Source of the DNA: Acidovorax sp. HDW3
Lineage (GTDB): Bacteria; Pseudomonadota; Gammaproteobacteria; Burkholderiales; Burkholderiaceae_C
Direction of reading: 5' to 3'
Assembly: GCF_011303755.1 (NCBI RefSeq)
Contig: NZ_CP049885.1
Span: forward strand, 770,001-834,000
DNA: 64,000 bases
The notes beneath the pieces were generated by a model, which worked only from the letters and a program-made list of their open reading frames with translations, had not been told where the DNA came from and ran no database searches. Each line of letters begins with the position of its first letter. Position 1 is the first letter of the stretch. Both the position numbers and the translations under genes were made by a program. This document shows positions 1-9,012 of this stretch, one piece after another.

Positions 1-2
1 TC

Positions 3-398
3 AACCACAAAGACTTTGCCAGCCGCGAAGATTTTGACGCGGCGCTGGCGCAGGTGATCGACCGCTACCAGCCGGCGCTGGTGGTGCTGGCGGGCTTCAT
101 GCGCATCCTCACACCGGGTTTTGTGGCGCACTACGCTGGACGCATCATCAACATCCACCCTTCGCTGCTGCCGGCCTTCACCGGCCTGCACACGCACCAG
201 CGCGCGATTGATGCCGGCTGCAAATTTGCCGGTGCCACCGTGCACCAGGTGACGGCTGAGCTGGATGTGGGCCCCATCCTGGAGCAGGCCGTGGTGCCGG
301 TGCTGCCCGGCGACACGGCCGACACCCTGGCCGCGCGGGTGCTGACGCAAGAGCACGTGATCTACCCGCGCGCGGTGGCGGCTTTGTTGCGGGGCTGA
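3..398 (+). CDS. purN: Phosphoribosylglycinamide formyltransferase PurN, 3' part
   Basis: This is the C-terminal part of GAR transformylase, which transfers a formyl group from 10-formyltetrahydrofolate to GAR in purine synthesis in the cytoplasm. The reading frame is open from base 3, so the start lies left of the window. About 131 residues are present. The family's catalytic region is visible: NIHPSLLPAF (with the catalytic Asn and His), then GATVHQV and ELDVGPIL with the catalytic Asp, ending at a normal PurN C-terminus. It is followed 78 bp later by an RsmB-type methyltransferase gene on the same strand. Nothing looks broken apart from truncation by the window edge. Confidence 0.93.
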   Translation, partial: NHKDFASREDFDAALAQVIDRYQPALVVLAGFMRILTPGFVAHYAGRIINIHPSLLPAFTGLHTHQRAIDAGCKFAGATVHQVTAELDVGPILEQAVVPVLPGDTADTLAARVLTQEHVIYPRAVAALLRG

Positions 399-463
399 GG
401 GGCGCATCCAGCAGGGGCCGGTACCGGGTATCCGGGCGCCGTGGGAGGGTGGCGGGTAAATGG

Positions 464-469
464 GACAAT
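464..469 (+). promoter_or_regulatory. -10-like hexamer 7 bp before the rsmB-type start (possible leaderless promoter)
   Basis: GACAAT is separated from the ATG at 477 by exactly seven bases (CGCCCCC) and no Shine-Dalgarno sequence is visible. The same layout occurs before trmJ and lysE. Transcription starting about 7 bp after the hexamer would give a leaderless mRNA. No good -35 was found, so this is inference. Confidence 0.35.
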
Positions 470-476
470 CGCCCCC

Positions 477-1748
477 ATGCATCCCAAAGCCCTTTTAGAC
501 GCCTGCGCTGAACTCGTCAGGCTGACCCTTTCTTTTGAACACCCGGCCGACGCCGTGGTGTCGCGTTTTTTCCGTGACCATCGCAACCTGGGGCAGCGCG
601 AGCGCGCCACCCTGGCCGAGACCACGTACGCCGTGCTGCGCCAGAAAATCCTGTTCGAGCAGCTCGCGCGCTCAGGATCGGGGCCGAAGGAGCGGCGCCT
701 GGCCATTCTGGGCTTTTATGGCCCGCGCGACTTTCTCAAAAGCGCCCTGAACGAGCAGGAAAAAGCCTGGATCGACGCCTGCGACAGCGTGCGCCCCGAT
801 GAACTGCTCGAACCCCAGCGCCACAACCTGCCGCAGTGGCTGGCCGAGCCGCTCAAAGCCCAGCTGGGCGCGGGCTTTTGGCCGCTGGCCGAGAGCCTGC
901 AGCAGCAGGCGCCGCTCGATCTGCGCGTCAACGCTTTACAAGAAAAACGCGAGCAAGTGCAGAAGGAGCTTGCGCAAGCAGCTATCAAATCAGAAGCAAC
1001 GCCGTACTCCCCCTGGGGCCTGCGGGTGCAGGGCAAGCCGGCGCTGAACAAGCTCGACGCCTTCACGCGCGGCGCGCTCGAGGTGCAGGACGAAGGCTCA
1101 CAGCTGCTGGCACTGCTGCTCGATGCCAAGCGTGGCGAGATGGTGGTGGATTTTTGTGCCGGTGCTGGCGGCAAGACCCTGGCGATTGGTGCGCAGATGC
1201 GCAACACCGGGCGGCTGTATGCGTTCGACGTCTCGGGCCACCGGCTCGATGCGCTCAAGCCGCGCCTGGCGCGCTCGGGCCTGTCGAACGTGCACCCGGC
1301 GGCGATTGCGCACGAGCGCGATGAGCGCGTCAAGCGCCTGGCCGGCAAGATCGACCGCGTGCTGGTCGATGCACCGTGCTCGGGCCTGGGCACGCTGCGG
1401 CGCAACCCCGATTTGAAATGGCGCCAAAGCCCGCAGGCCGTGGCCGAATTGACGGTCAAGCAGGCGGCGATTCTGGCCAGCGCTGCGCGCCTGGTGAAAA
1501 GCGGCGGGCGCCTGGTGTACGCCACCTGCAGCGTGCTGCCCGAGGAGAACGAGGCCATTGCCGAAGCCTTTGGCGCTGCGCACCCCGACTTTGCGCCGCT
1601 GGCGGCCGGCGAGCTGCTGGCGCAATTGAAGGTGGAGGGCACCGCCAGCCTGTGCAGCGGCGGCGACGATGGCCAGCGCTACCTGCGCCTGTGGCCGCAC
1701 CTGCACCAGACGGATGGCTTTTTTGCCGCTGTGTGGCAGAGGAACTAA
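477..1748 (+). CDS. rsmB: RsmB/NOP-type 16S rRNA (cytosine-C5) methyltransferase
   Basis: Predicted SAM-dependent enzyme that methylates a cytosine C5 in 16S rRNA (position 967 for true RsmB). The 423-residue protein has an N-terminal helical NusB-like part (residues about 1-130) and a Rossmann methyltransferase domain with FCAGAGGKT (SAM loop). Both family cysteines are present: PCSG with C301 and ATCS with C351, the pair used for catalysis and product release. The start at 477 is the first ATG fitting the family N-terminus and has no clear ribosome-binding site. Around residues 150-180 a linker includes an in-frame copy of the dispersed repeat (bases about 966-993, reverse orientation), giving extra residues between the RNA-binding part and the catalytic domain. 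The family is certain; the exact target cytosine is inferred. Confidence 0.88.
   Translation: MHPKALLDACAELVRLTLSFEHPADAVVSRFFRDHRNLGQRERATLAETTYAVLRQKILFEQLARSGSGPKERRLAILGFYGPRDFLKSALNEQEKAWIDACDSVRPDELLEPQRHNLPQWLAEPLKAQLGAGFWPLAESLQQQAPLDLRVNALQEKREQVQKELAQAAIKSEATPYSPWGLRVQGKPALNKLDAFTRGALEVQDEGSQLLALLLDAKRGEMVVDFCAGAGGKTLAIGAQMRNTGRLYAFDVSGHRLDALKPRLARSGLSNVHPAAIAHERDERVKRLAGKIDRVLVDAPCSGLGTLRRNPDLKWRQSPQAVAELTVKQAAILASAARLVKSGGRLVYATCSVLPEENEAIAEAFGAAHPDFAPLAAGELLAQLKVEGTASLCSGGDDGQRYLRLWPHLHQTDGFFAAVWQRN
966..993 (-). repeat. Dispersed Comamonadaceae-type repeat, diverged copy inside rsmB
   Basis: Read on the minus strand it contains GATAGCTGCTTGCGCAAGC, which matches the core of the dispersed repeat seen in full at 50825. 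It lies in frame in the rsmB linker and does not disturb conserved motifs. Only the core is recognisable, so confidence is moderate. Confidence 0.5.
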
Positions 1749-1774
1749 GCCCCCATCCCAGCCTTCCCCCAGAG

Positions 1775-2001
1775 GGCTTATGTATGCACACATCTTTTTT
1801 TGATAGCGCACAACGCTTGTTTGGCGCTGGTTTGCACTCCCTCTCCCCTTGCGGGAGAGGGTTGGGGAGAGGGGTGAATAGGCAAGGTGCTGCCAGCGCC
1901 CCCTCTCCCCCGGCCCCTCCCCCGCGAGGGGGGAGGGGAGCAAAAACCGCCCTTTGACCAGGCGGATGGGAGCCGTCAAAAGATGTGTGCATACACAAGC
2001 C
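1775..2001 (+). mobile_element. Miniature inverted-repeat element (MITE-like), copy 1, 227 bp
   Basis: A non-coding element bounded by 24-bp inverted ends beginning GGCTTGTGTATGCACACATC and continuing TTTT; the left end here has one change (GGCTTATG). It is flanked by the direct repeat CAGAG at 1770-1774 and 2002-2006, a good candidate 5-bp target-site duplication. The interior holds two internal palindromes of C-run/G-run type, around 1841-1865 and 1908-1940, able to form strong hairpins. A second copy in reverse orientation lies at 6760-6985, differing by one base and one length change in a T-run. There is no room for a transposase, so movement would depend on an enzyme encoded elsewhere. 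It sits in the convergent gap between the rsmB-type gene and rpmG. Confidence 0.85.
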
Positions 2002-2025
2002 CAGAGGGGGAAGGGGCCCAAAAAC

Positions 2026-2062
2026 AAAAAACCGCCAAGGCTTGCGCCGTGGCGGTTTTTTG
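2026..2062 (-). terminator. Rho-independent terminator after rpmBG
   Basis: A stem of ACCGCCA (2031-2037) with TGGCGGT (2050-2056) is followed, on the minus strand, by a T-run (complement of the A-run at 2021-2030). It lies 17 bp beyond the rpmG stop codon. A T-run also exists on the plus strand, so it could work in both directions. Confidence 0.8.
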
Positions 2063-2078
2063 GGAGGGCGGGGCCGAA

Positions 2079-2249
2079 TTACTTCAGCTTCGCTTCCTTG
2101 TACTCGACGTGCTTGCGCGCCTTGGGGTCGAACTTCATGATCGACATCTTTTCAGGCATCGTCTTCTTGTTCTTGGTGGTGGTGTAGAAGTGACCGGTGC
2201 TCGCCGTGGAGACCAGCTTGATCTTTTCGCGTCCGCCTTTAGTAGCCAT
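2079..2249 (-). CDS. rpmG: 50S ribosomal protein L33
   Basis: A 56-residue basic protein of the large ribosomal subunit. Translation gives [20 protein letters not shown] at the start, followed by FYTTTKNKK and [19 protein letters not shown] at the end, the standard L33 pattern. It lacks the zinc-binding cysteine pairs of the other L33 type, so it is the zinc-independent form usual in proteobacteria. It starts 20 bp after the rpmB stop and forms the rpmB-rpmG operon, with a terminator just downstream. GGAGAAAC about 6 bp upstream is a strong ribosome-binding site. Confidence 0.97.
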
Positions 2250-2269
2250 GGTGTTTCTCCTTCAGGAAA

Positions 2270-2503
2270 TTAAGCTTGGCCACGGGCACGCATGTCTGCG
2301 AGCACGGAGTCGATACCGTTCTTGTCGATCAGGCGCAGGGCGGCGCTGGAGACGCGCAGGCGCACCCAACGGTTTTCGCTCTCCACCCAGAAACGGCGGT
2401 ACTGCAGGTTGGGCAGGAAACGGCGCTTGGTTTTGATGTTCGAGTGGGAGACGTTGTGTCCCACCATGGGCTTCTTGCCCGTTACTTCACATACGCGTGC
2501 CAT
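2270..2503 (-). CDS. rpmB: 50S ribosomal protein L28
   Basis: A 77-residue large-subunit ribosomal protein. [20 protein letters not shown] is the typical L28 N-terminus, followed by [16 protein letters not shown] and a C-terminus with [17 protein letters not shown]. The ATG at 2503 was chosen because the family begins exactly there; the frame stays open upstream but without similarity. First gene of the rpmB-rpmG operon, with a TATAAT-like -10 about 125 bp upstream. Confidence 0.97.
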
Positions 2504-2626
2504 GAGGACACTCCGATAGTTGCACGGCTGCAAGCCCTGAAACACGGCCTGCAACCTCACCTCGCCAGAATAGGGGTGGCGGTAACCCCGCTGCTCTGGG
2601 TTGGGGCCAAAGCAGCAAAGCCCGCG

Positions 2627-2632
2627 ATTATA
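2627..2632 (-). promoter_or_regulatory. -10 element of the probable rpmBG promoter
   Basis: A perfect TATAAT on the minus strand in the trxB-rpmB gap. The -35 region overlaps the end of trxB and is weak. It would give a 5' leader of about 115 bases before rpmB, rich in G+C and able to fold, which could hold post-transcriptional control. Confidence 0.5.
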
Positions 2633-2647
2633 GCGCGGTGCGCGGAT

Positions 2648-6041
<3,394 letters not shown>

Positions 6042-6045
<4 letters not shown>

Positions 6046-6683
6046 CCATGAAACTCAAGATTGCTATCGTTTTACTAGCTGCTAGCGCGCACTGCGCCTG
6101 GGCTGACGGCCTCAAAAGCCTCGAAACCTTCATGCGCGACGTACGCAGCGGCCGTGCCAGCTTCACGCAAACCGTCACCCCCCCGCCCAAAGACGGGCAG
6201 ACCGCGCGCAGCAAGCAGTCCAGCGGCGACTTCGCCTTTGCGCGCCCGGGGCGCTTTCGCTTTGACTACACCAAGCCCTTTGCCCAAACCATCGTCGCCG
6301 ACGGCAAGACGCTGTGGCTCTACGACCCCGACCTGAACCAGGTCACCCAGCGCGTGCAAGACCAGGCCCTGGGCAGCACGCCGGCGGCGCTGCTGACCTC
6401 CGCCACCGACCTGGCGGCGCTGCGCGCCGAATTCGTGCTTGAAAACGCCCCCGACCAGGACGGCCTGCAGTGGGTGCTGGCGCGCCCCAAAGCCCTGGGC
6501 GGCCAGCTGCAAAGCGTGCGCGTGGGCTTTGCCGGCGCGCAGCTGGCGGTGCTGGAGATTGAAGACAGCTTCGGCCAACGCTCGCACATTCGGTTTACGG
6601 GCCTGCAAACCAACCCCAGCCTGCCGGCAGCCACCTTCCACTTCCAGGTGCCGGCGGGCGCCGACGTGCAAAAGCTCAATTAA
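6042..6683 (+). CDS. lolA: Outer-membrane lipoprotein carrier LolA
   Basis: Periplasmic chaperone that ferries lipoproteins from LolCDE to LolB. 213 residues with a signal peptide (basic MTMKLK, hydrophobic core IAIVLLAAS, cleavage after CAWA). The mature part shows the LolA pattern: [32 protein letters not shown] and a C-terminal beta strand region. It overlaps ftsK by 4 bp. The hydrophobic core of the signal peptide is encoded by a copy of the dispersed repeat found throughout this window (6061-6092), which contains the exact 13-base core TAGCTGCTAGCGC. MKLK at 6048 is an alternative start. Downstream lies only the mobile-element gap. Confidence 0.93.
6061..6092 (+). repeat. Dispersed repeat copy encoding the LolA signal-peptide core
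   Basis: TTGCTAT, six bases, then A-TAGCTGCTAGCGC aligns with the full repeat at 50825. It is translated as the hydrophobic stretch of the LolA signal peptide. The exact 13-base core is shared with the copies at 50825 and 52341. Confidence 0.7.
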
Positions 6684-6701
6684 AAAACGGGAACGGCCCT
6701 C

Positions 6702-7029
6702 ACTTTTTGATAGCGCGTTGCGCTGATGGGGCGCGGGTTTTGCTCCCTCTCCCCTTGCGGGCTTGTGTATGCACACATCTTTTGACGGCTCCCATCCGCC
6801 TGGTCAAAGGGCGGTTTTTGCTCCCCTCCCCCCTCGCGGGGGAGGGGCCGGGGGAGAGGGGGCGCTGGCAGCACCTTGCCTATTCACCCCTCTCCCCAAC
6901 CCTCTCCCGCAAGGGGAGAGGGAGTGCAAACCAGCGCCAAACAAGCGTTGTGCGCTATCAAAAAAGATGTGTGCATACACAAGCCCTCGCGGGGGAGGGG
7001 AGTTACAGCCGTCACGCGCCATCAAAAAG
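6702..7029. mobile_element. Older, interrupted relative of the miniature element
   Basis: Sequence outside the intact copy at 6760-6985 is itself related to that element. The left flank (6702-6759) carries TTTTTGATAGCGC, then a diverged stretch, then TCCCTCTCCCCTTGCGG, in the same order as inside the intact element. The right flank (6986-7029) continues with GCGGGGGAGGGGAG and ends with GCGCCATCAAAAAG, the inverse of the left end. The intact copy therefore seems to have jumped into an ancestral copy, splitting its central palindrome. The unit fills the lolA-ribD convergent gap; no gene was seen in it. Confidence 0.65.
6760..6985 (-). mobile_element. Miniature inverted-repeat element, copy 2, 226 bp, inverted
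   Basis: Reverse complement of the element at 1775-2001 with one base change and one fewer T in a homopolymer. Both ends carry the same perfect 24-bp inverted repeat starting GGCTTGTGTATGCACACATC. The flanks TTGCG (6755-6759) and CTCGC (6986-6990) do not form a clean duplication, perhaps because the target was itself palindromic. It contains no gene of useful length. Confidence 0.85.
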
Positions 7030-7051
7030 CCCGCGCGCAGCGGGAGCGTTG

Positions 7052-8164
7052 TTATGGCTTGCGCAGCACCAGCCGCACATCCTCGCCCACCCGCTCCATG
7101 CTGTGCCAGGCCAGCGGCGCCGCGGCTGCCAGGTGGCTCGGACCGCTCCAGTCGGCCAGGCCGCGCCCGGCGCCGAGCAGCCGGGGGGCGAGGTACAGCA
7201 GGTACTCATCGACCAGGTTGGCTTGCACCAGGGCGCCGTTCAGGCGTGCGCCGGCTTCCACGTGCAGCTCGTTGATGCCGTGCGCGCCCAGGTTGCGCAG
7301 CAGCGCCCGCAGATCGACCCGGCCATCGGCGCCGGGCAGGTGGATGACGCGCGCGCCGCGTGCCTGCAGGGCCGCGCGGCGGGCCTCTATTTCAGGGCTT
7401 AAAGGGGCTGCAAAGTAGATCAGGCAAGCGCGAGGTGCTATAAAAATTGCAGCATCCGGGGGCGTGCGCAGGGCGCTGTCGAGCAGCACCAGCTGCGGCT
7501 GGCGCGGCGTGGCCAGGGCGCGCACGTCCAGGCGCGGGTTGTCGGCCAGCACCGTGCCGACGCCGGTGAGCACGGCGCAGGCACGGGCGCGCCAAATCTG
7601 GCCGTCGGCCCGGGCGGCGGCGGCGGTGATCCACTGGCTCTCGCCGCTGGGCAGGGCGGTGAAGCCGTCGAGCGAGCCCGCCGCTTTCATCCGCACCCAG
7701 GGCAGGCCGTGCTCCATGCGGCGGAAAAAACCGATGTTGAGCGCGTGCGCCGCCTCGGCGCCCGGGCCCACGTCCACCGCCACGCCGGCGGCGCGCAGGC
7801 GCGCAAAGCCCTGGCCGCCGACCAGCGGGTTCGGGTCGCCCAGGCTGGCCACCACGCGGGCGATGCCGGCGGCCACCAGCGCGTCGCAGCAGGGCCCGGT
7901 GCGGCCCTGGTGGGCGCAGGGTTCGAGCGTGACGTAGGCCGTGGCGCCGCGCACGCTGTGCCCGCGCGCGGCGGCGTCGCGCAGCGCCATGACCTCGGCG
8001 TGCGCGCCGCCGGCCTGCTGCGTAAAGCCCTGGCCGAGCACCTGGCCGTCGGCGCTGGTGATGACGCAGCCCACGCGCGGGTTGGGGCTGGACAGGAGCA
8101 ATGCCTGCTCGGCCTGCGCCAGTGCCTGGGCCATGAAAAATTCGTCCATCTGCGGGTGTGTCAT
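7052..8164 (-). CDS. ribD: Bifunctional riboflavin biosynthesis deaminase/reductase RibD
   Basis: Catalyses the deamination and then the NADPH-dependent reduction of the pyrimidine intermediate in riboflavin synthesis. The 370-residue protein has an N-terminal zinc deaminase domain (HAE at H55/E57; PCAHQGRTGPCC with zinc ligands C83 and C92) and a C-terminal reductase domain (MKAAGSLDG; LTGVGTVLADNP; ELHVEAG). The start overlaps the stop of the upstream hydrolase by 4 bp (ATGA). Between the reductase motifs a stretch near residues 240-255 is encoded by a diverged copy of the dispersed repeat. No other riboflavin gene is beside it. Confidence 0.94.
   Translation of the reverse strand: MTHPQMDEFFMAQALAQAEQALLLSSPNPRVGCVITSADGQVLGQGFTQQAGGAHAEVMALRDAAARGHSVRGATAYVTLEPCAHQGRTGPCCDALVAAGIARVVASLGDPNPLVGGQGFARLRAAGVAVDVGPGAEAAHALNIGFFRRMEHGLPWVRMKAAGSLDGFTALPSGESQWITAAAARADGQIWRARACAVLTGVGTVLADNPRLDVRALATPRQPQLVLLDSALRTPPDAAIFIAPRACLIYFAAPLSPEIEARRAALQARGARVIHLPGADGRVDLRALLRNLGAHGINELHVEAGARLNGALVQANLVDEYLLYLAPRLLGAGRGLADWSGPSHLAAAAPLAWHSMERVGEDVRLVLRKP
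7408..7450 (-). repeat. Dispersed repeat, diverged copy inside ribD
   Basis: On the minus strand the stretch reads ATAGCACCTCGCGCTTGCCT, then GATC and later TTTGCAGCC, closest to the intergenic copy at 35160 (TCGCGCTTGCTGGAT...TTGCAGCC). It is in frame within ribD. Confidence 0.5.
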
Positions 8165-8988
8165 GGGGTGCTCGTGGGCTGCTCGTGGGGGGGGAGGGCG
8201 GCCAGGGCGGCGGCGATGGCCGCCGCCGTGCCCTGGGGGTCTTCCATGGGGAAAAGGTGGCTGCCGTCAAGCAAGCTCATACGCCCCTGGGTGACACGCC
8301 GCGTCAGCCCCAGGCCCACCTGGCGCAGCTCGTTGGAGTGGCGCCCGCCGATGAAGGCCACCGGGCAGCGCAGCGGGTGCTGGCGCAGCAGCTGCGCCAG
8401 GTTGTGCGGCAGGGTGTTGTAGATCTGCGTCTCCACCATGCGGTCAAAGGCCAGCACGCGCTGGCCGTCGGCGTCGTGCAGGCCGTGCGTGACGTAGTCC
8501 TGCAGCACCTGCGCATCCCAGCGGGCAAAGCTTTTTTTCTGCTGGAAATGCGCCAGCGCCGCCTCGGTGCTGGGCCACTGGTGGCGCCGGCGGCGGCTGA
8601 TGCGCCCGGGCGTGACCGAGGGCGCCAGGCCGGTGTGCTTGGCCAGCGCCAGGGCGTGCGCGCGCCAGCCGCCAATCAGCGGTGAGTCGAGCAGCAGCAC
8701 GCCGCGCGCGAGCTCCGGGTGCTGCGCCGCCACCATGGCGCTCAAAAAACCGCCGAGCGAATGGCCGACGAGAAACGCCGGCTGGCCGTTGCGCTCTTGC
8801 TCGCGGCGGGCAAAGTCGGCCAGCTGCGCCACCAGGTGCGGCCAGTTGTTGGTGACGGGGTAGCGCGCGTCGTGCCCCAGGCGCTCGATGGCGTTGACGG
8901 CAAAGCCGCGCGCGCGCAGCTGCGCGAACAGCACGCGGTAGGTGCTGGCGGGAAAACTGTTGGCGTGGGCGAAAACGATGGGGGTCAT
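8161..8988 (-). CDS. Alpha/beta-fold hydrolase
   Basis: A 275-residue alpha/beta hydrolase of unknown substrate. The nucleophile elbow GHSLGG is at residues 75-80 (S77), preceded by the oxyanion-type FAHANSFP near the N-terminus; a C-terminal DGSHLFPME supplies the likely catalytic His, and VAFIGGRHSNEL precedes it. No signal peptide is seen, so it is probably cytoplasmic. The ATG at 8988 was preferred to an upstream in-frame codon because the domain begins at MTPIVFAHA. It lies 24 bp after the restriction enzyme gene and overlaps ribD by 4 bp, so these may be co-transcribed. An esterase role is only a class-level guess. Confidence 0.85.
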   Translation of the reverse strand: MTPIVFAHANSFPASTYRVLFAQLRARGFAVNAIERLGHDARYPVTNNWPHLVAQLADFARREQERNGQPAFLVGHSLGGFLSAMVAAQHPELARGVLLLDSPLIGGWRAHALALAKHTGLAPSVTPGRISRRRRHQWPSTEAALAHFQQKKSFARWDAQVLQDYVTHGLHDADGQRVLAFDRMVETQIYNTLPHNLAQLLRQHPLRCPVAFIGGRHSNELRQVGLGLTRRVTQGRMSLLDGSHLFPMEDPQGTAAAIAAALAALPPHEQPTSTP

Positions 8989-9012
8989 GGGGTGGGGTGG
9001 TGGCAAAGGCGT

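Follow-up and report, generated by a model that had tools for sequence, protein, structure and literature searches.

The 227-bp element present in two copies in the 64,000-nucleotide stretch of DNA analysed here (the window) is a MITE of a Comamonadaceae chromosome, and its family was recently active. There is good reason to regard it as a non-autonomous DNA transposon with IS4-family, Tn5/IS50-like ends that is moved in trans and targeted to palindromes. In the mechanism proposed, a transposase supplied in trans would bind the 19-bp ends (5'-CTTRTGTATGCACACATCT). This enzyme would presumably belong to the Tn5-like group, of which the 3.15-Mb genome carrying the window (G000) has no detected gene at present. 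The element would then be moved, probably by cut-and-paste chemistry, and inserted on the axis of a short GC palindrome, in most cases an intergenic REP-like repeat, with duplication of 7 to 9 bp (9 to 11 bp if the element starts at 5'-CTT). As the resident interior is itself a REP-like dimer, each insertion would supply two further palindromes like those targeted, leading to nesting.

The preliminary description of this DNA had reported near-identical inverted twins with inverted 24-bp ends and no gene within, and all of this was borne out. The copies were found in inverse orientation at the coordinates given there, 1775 to 2001 (+) and 6760 to 6985 (-), differing in a single base (GGCTTA/GGCTTG) and in one T of a T-run, and their 24-bp ends (GGCTTRTGTATGCACACATCTTTT) are inverted repeats enclosing a gene-free interior. 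The window contained four matches to the 24-bp end (≤3 mismatches), compared with 0.10 expected. The genome-wide search proposed earlier gave 32 matches in G000, with 0 for the reversed control pattern, so the ends are not confined to the window pair. When the same genome was searched with the whole element, 13 near-full copies were found at 93 to 100% identity to the query, along with several partial or truncated ones; at least 11 of the near-full copies lie outside the window and had gone unnoticed. Pairwise identity among the 13 ranged from 94 to 99.6%, with a mean of 97.2%, and the family consensus had zero differences from window copy 1, consistent with the recent movement already suspected. 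Local gene conversion, offered previously as another source of the near-identity, is not needed, since some unlinked copies match as closely as the twins do.

When genes were called by simple codon composition around the 16 best matches, 14 of these were clear of predicted frames. A predicted frame overlapped the element at L011, probably through a start extended into the element, and the truncated copy L015 by 7 bases. No Rfam match was obtained within window positions 1 to 9000. Short, gene-free, bounded by terminal inverted repeats and present in many copies, the element has the make-up of a MITE, and its family also displays target site duplications and empty sites.

Features of the two window copies and their flanks (window coordinates; terminator-like hairpins are predicted from sequence)
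Feature	Position	Strand	Remark
MITE copy 1	1775..2001	+	227 bp; 1777-1999 if the start is 5'-CTT as in IS50-subgroup elements
Left terminal inverted repeat GGCTTATGTATGCACACATCTTTT	1775..1798	+	
Right terminal inverted repeat GGCTTGTGTATGCACACATCTTTT	1978..2001	-	
Internal REP-like palindrome 1 (CCCTCTCCCCTTGCGGGAGAGGG...)	1839..1874	+	
Internal REP-like palindrome 2 (CCCCCTCTCCCCCGG...CGCGAGGGGGGAGGGG)	1898..1951	+	
Terminator-like hairpin CCGCCTGGTCAAAGGGCGG followed by TTTTT, copy 1	1947..1965	-	reads along rpmG transcription
Left arm CCTTCCCCC of interrupted host palindrome	1762..1770	+	
Right arm GGGGGAAGG of interrupted host palindrome	2006..2014	+	
Target duplication CCCAGAGGG, left	1768..1776	+	includes the ambiguous GG
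Target duplication CCCAGAGGG, right	2000..2008	+	
MITE copy 2, inverted twin	6760..6985	-	226 bp
Flanking repeat CCCTTGCGGG of copy 2	6752..6761	+	pairs with 6984-6993, 1 mismatch
Flanking repeat CCCTCGCGGG of copy 2	6984..6993	+	
Terminator-like hairpin as in copy 1, copy 2	6796..6814	+	reads along lolA transcription

The CAGAG noted earlier on both sides of copy 1 is a real direct repeat, but it is the mere core of a longer duplication, which is either CCAGAGG (7 bp) or the 9-bp sequence in the table, depending on which base is taken as the first of the element. Copy 2 is flanked by imperfect 10-bp repeats. Read in the register GCTT...AAGC, exact direct repeats of 7 to 9 bp were present at 13 of 20 copies from G000 and related genomes, and mispaired flanks, used as a control, attained a 7-bp repeat in 13 of 380 trials. 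In the register CTT...AAG, which corresponds to the start of IS50-subgroup elements, the repeats were 9 to 11 bp long and had the form C...G in nearly all copies. At two copies (177481 and 2938912), a non-G base precedes GCTT and recurs on the opposite side; this base is therefore derived from the target, and GCTT is the earliest possible start of the element. The G at the front and the C at the rear may come from either element or target. In the sister genome G003, the sites corresponding to the copies at 82370-82593 and 177481-177705 each hold the target once, and the alignments are gapless across the junction. At both window sites, G003 lacks the element and the host palindrome and has unrelated intergenic DNA, so these are not clean empty sites and are uninformative as to duplication length. 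The comparison with relatives put forward in the preliminary description did reveal empty sites, at two other copies, but not the 5-bp duplication expected there, which was rejected on the register analysis and the empty sites. The target duplication is 7 to 9 bp, or 9 to 11 bp if the ends begin 5'-CTT as in Tn5-like elements.

The palindromic character of the insertion sites had previously been missed. Joined flanks formed short GC palindromes with the duplication at their centre; a perfect stem of at least 5 pairs was found at 11 of 12 sites in G000, compared with 12 to 16% of random positions, and one of at least 8 pairs at 7 of 12, compared with 0.6 to 1.6%. Copy 1, for example, splits the host palindrome CCTTCCCCC-AGA-GGGGGAAGG, and the host palindromes at the two window sites are unlike each other. 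Most targets were REP-like repeats, and two (82370 and 177481) were plain short palindromes. Some flanks are themselves repetitive. The sequence to the right of copy L009 (G000:177706 onward), CGCCAGCACCGTGCTGGCCGCGCCATG..., recurs several times in the relatives G002 and G007 (including L182, L183, L186, L187, and L190), and the left flank of L011 (joined-flank query 1348-1389) belongs to another intergenic repeat, AAAATATAGCTGCTTGCGCTTG..., which is very abundant and was matched many times in each of the four relatives searched.

The search for a transposase gene with the same ends, also advised earlier, failed in all sets searched: G000, the genus, 400 genomes of the family, 398 genomes of the phylum, a large species-level genome collection, and plasmids yielded no autonomous element with exact ends. 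Viral contigs and phages likewise gave none, with one chance-level match in phages, and no autonomous element adjoined the single-ended sites in G400 and G227. The failure to find an insertion sequence (IS) with the exact A-type ends of the window family (CTTGTGTATGCACACATCT) in these sets counts against the proposed explanation.

Insertion sequences with similar ends do exist. A second MITE type in G000 (69797-70090; L215) was reached via a degenerate copy of the window family. It has the right end CATAGGTATCTACACAGC, the left end CATTGGTATCTGCACGGC, and the 9-bp duplication CTGTCAATG, contains the same REP module as the window family, and is a chimera that includes the right part of an A-type element. 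Plasmids searched with an end of this kind gave four weak matches (E of 1 to 4), all from Acinetobacter, of which three were opened (L226, L227, and L228). In L226 and L228, a transposase gene begins or ends approximately 10 to 20 bases inside the end, with both ends seen only in L228, and the proteins match IS4-family NCBIfam models below the curated cut-off. L227 (2503-3838) was discarded as an intact relative, having a single Tn5-like end, no second end, and a broken frame; its end precedes, by approximately 100 bases, a gene with the annotation IS3 family transposase, and this gene has 18 stops when read straight through. Protein searches led to relatives in Citrobacter and Aeromonas plasmids, in Arsenophonus, and in one Comamonadaceae genome (loci L229, L249, L230, and L231, the last being that of Comamonadaceae), and these have ends of this kind too. 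L231 is 1377 to 1379 bp long with identical 19-bp ends. Duplications of 9 bp were observed for L228 and L229, and three of the five insertion sequences had no recognisable duplication. Judged by eye from their flanks, L231 and L230 also seem to lie between palindromic arms. Among viral contigs, a related transposase was found in L250 alone; this contig was set aside, its frame being broken by stops and its ends repeating those of Arsenophonus.

Searched against solved structures, a profile of four of these transposases had Tn5 transposase as its sole significant match (E of 1.1e-5), and phmmer with one transposase found nothing. The inner ACACATCT of the window-family ends is shared with the Tn5 mosaic end. 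The published end consensus of the IS50 subgroup, CW------Y---CA-A--W- (PMC2266710), was matched at 7 of 7 positions in nearly all ends, both those of A-type and those of the second MITE and the insertion sequences (B-type). The closest IS ends, those of L231, are similar only, being identical to A-type ends at 14 of 19 positions, or 15 of 20 counting the leading G; agreement at 15 or more of 20 has a p of ~4e-6, taken as a single comparison and uncorrected for the search behind it. The duplications of 10 to 11 bp seen in the 5'-CTT register exceed the 8 to 9 bp listed for the subgroup (PMC2266710); this excess, if that register holds, weighs against the proposed explanation, as do the IS4-model scores below the cut-off and the insertion sequences devoid of a recognisable duplication. 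What connects A-type with B-type ends is a common signature, duplications that are alike, and the same REP cargo, not a transposase in common. G000 itself had no match to the Tn5-like transposase group. Because insertion sequences with similar ends were found, the profile matched Tn5 transposase, the ends carry the subgroup signature, and G000 has no such gene, the family is read as moved in trans by a Tn5-like transposase.

It is unlikely that the family instead belongs to another DDE transposase family, such as IS256 or ISL3, with a merely coincidental resemblance to Tn5-like ends. Such an origin would be compatible with the missing exact autonomous partner and with the 7- to 9-bp duplication in the GCTT register, which suits other families as well, and the IS3, IS110, IS4, IS256, and IS5 families all include REP-associated insertion sequences (PMC1525189). 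It is opposed by the complete IS50-subgroup signature, by the end matches to the Comamonadaceae IS at the uncorrected p given above, and by the second MITE of G000, which has ends near those of the insertion sequences and carries the same REP cargo.

During these searches, long frames of ~770 to 860 aa in Comamonadaceae genomes (L232 and L236, also L233, L234, and L237 to L239) were seen to match the Tn5-like transposases in their C-terminal region. Of these, L232 and L236 were opened and are FlhF-like proteins. For L236, hhalign gave a probability of 99.7 (E of 7e-26, 358 columns), although most of the catalytic motifs have disappeared, and the NCBIfam FlhF model PRK14723 includes this domain.

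Two REP-like palindromes make up the middle of the element, and G000 also has this pair without the ends. In related genomes the same ends surround a different REP dimer, giving a 238- to 240-bp type, and one metagenome-assembled genome, in which 77 ends were counted (≤3 mismatches), has a 178-bp and a 227-bp type. The palindromes of the 178-bp and 227-bp types resemble GTAG-tagged and CGTC-tagged REPs (PMC3733652). The copy at 998760-998984, which has a duplication of its own, sits inside the palindrome of an outer element (998682-999152) whose ends are identical in type and whose REP interior is different. In an alphaproteobacterial genome, that of Telmatospirillum (G402, L068), a single exact A-type end lies around a CGTC-like palindrome; GCTAGGGCATGCACACAT occurs there separately as an inverted pair, 193 bp apart.

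The spread of REPs is usually credited to RAYT tyrosine transposases. That the element is a REP/BIME or REPIN moved by a RAYT, with the ends forming part of the REP unit, is very improbable. The REP-like dimer would make a suitable interior, and G000 does have two Y1 transposase-domain genes; neither, however, is flanked by the REP module, and a RAYT origin was rejected on this lack of linkage. REP modules also occur without the ends, and the family has target duplications and empty sites, which are unexpected of single-strand movement by a tyrosine transposase. Neither mark of REPIN/RAYT systems, the lack of target duplication and a RAYT gene flanked by the same REPs, was found. With movement by a Tn5-like transposase as the preferred reading, it can tentatively be proposed, as a doubtful but conceivable extension, that a Tn5-like system spreads REP-like palindromes by landing in hairpin repeats, carrying a resident dimer, and adding landing sites. 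If true, this would be a RAYT-independent route for the growth and nesting of REP clusters.

The strong hairpins anticipated from the inner palindromes were confirmed by a folding energy of -165.9 kcal/mol for the element RNA (z of -10.0) and a z of -9.5 for the DNA; this strength comes from pairing within the inverted ends, within the REP pair, and between the arms of the host palindrome. Each copy has one terminator-like hairpin, predicted on one strand, which agrees with the terminator role suggested earlier, and a shuffled region yields approximately half as many by chance. A separate hairpin with a T-run adjoins rpmG at 2030-2062. As a possible side effect, insertion may give genes an additional hairpin or terminator at their 3' ends. 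Both window copies lie between convergent genes, and most other copies lie between tandem genes. The preliminary description had also envisaged that the inverted twins could invert the 4.7-kb segment between them (2002-6759). The order and orientation of the window genes are kept in G003, G006, and G007, so there is no sign of such an inversion, and the proposal was rejected. The least credible reading, that the window copies were locally converted or kept as a functional terminator or inversion pair rather than inserted independently, would suit inverted twins that differ by just one base and one T and both lie between convergent genes, but four of 78 pairs, the twins included, attain this identity, copies that are not linked resemble each other as closely, the two sites have different host palindromes, the majority of other copies lie between tandem genes, and relatives have the same gene order.

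A MITE with Tn5-like ends that both targets and carries REP palindromes, with dimers that vary from genome to genome, ties hairpin targeting to a transposase class that is well understood and points to a second, testable route by which REP clusters could grow in these genomes. It also accounts for a set of recurrent intergenic repeats in Comamonadaceae, which is of use in annotation. Among open-licence papers, none had the string GTATCTACACA together with a transposase, and no recognised description of a MITE of such make-up was found.

Compared with known systems, the family resembles the IS50 (Tn5) subgroup of the IS4 family in its 19-bp ends, which fit the published consensus (PMC2266710), and in that the transposases of insertion sequences with similar ends match Tn5 transposase. 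It differs in that the window element has no transposase, in its duplication of 7 to 9 or 9 to 11 bp compared with the published 8 to 9 bp, and in its clear palindrome targeting. Insertion at the axis of a REP palindrome is shared with ISRm22 of Sinorhizobium meliloti, a REP-targeted member of the IS4 family with all copies at REP axes and 6-bp duplications (PMC1525189, PMC2266710); ISRm22, however, is autonomous, belongs to the IS4Sa subgroup, and has no described REP cargo. IS1397, ISKpn1, IS621, and ISPpu9/10 similarly insert into REP sequences (PMC1525189), but they are autonomous members of the IS3 or IS110 families, with other duplication lengths where given. The pair of REP-like palindromes in the interior recalls REPIN/RAYT elements (PMC3116915) and BIMEs, whereas the window element has long terminal inverted repeats at its borders, flanked by duplications of the target. 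Like NEMIS, RUP, and ERIC (PMC3733652, PMC10969869), the element is short, gene-free, mostly intergenic, and hairpin-forming, with inverted ends; unlike them, it has other ends and targets and a REP dimer cargo that varies among members with the same ends. This kind of MITE is already known, and the combination of palindrome targeting, Tn5-like ends, and REP dimer cargo is, as far as checked, new.
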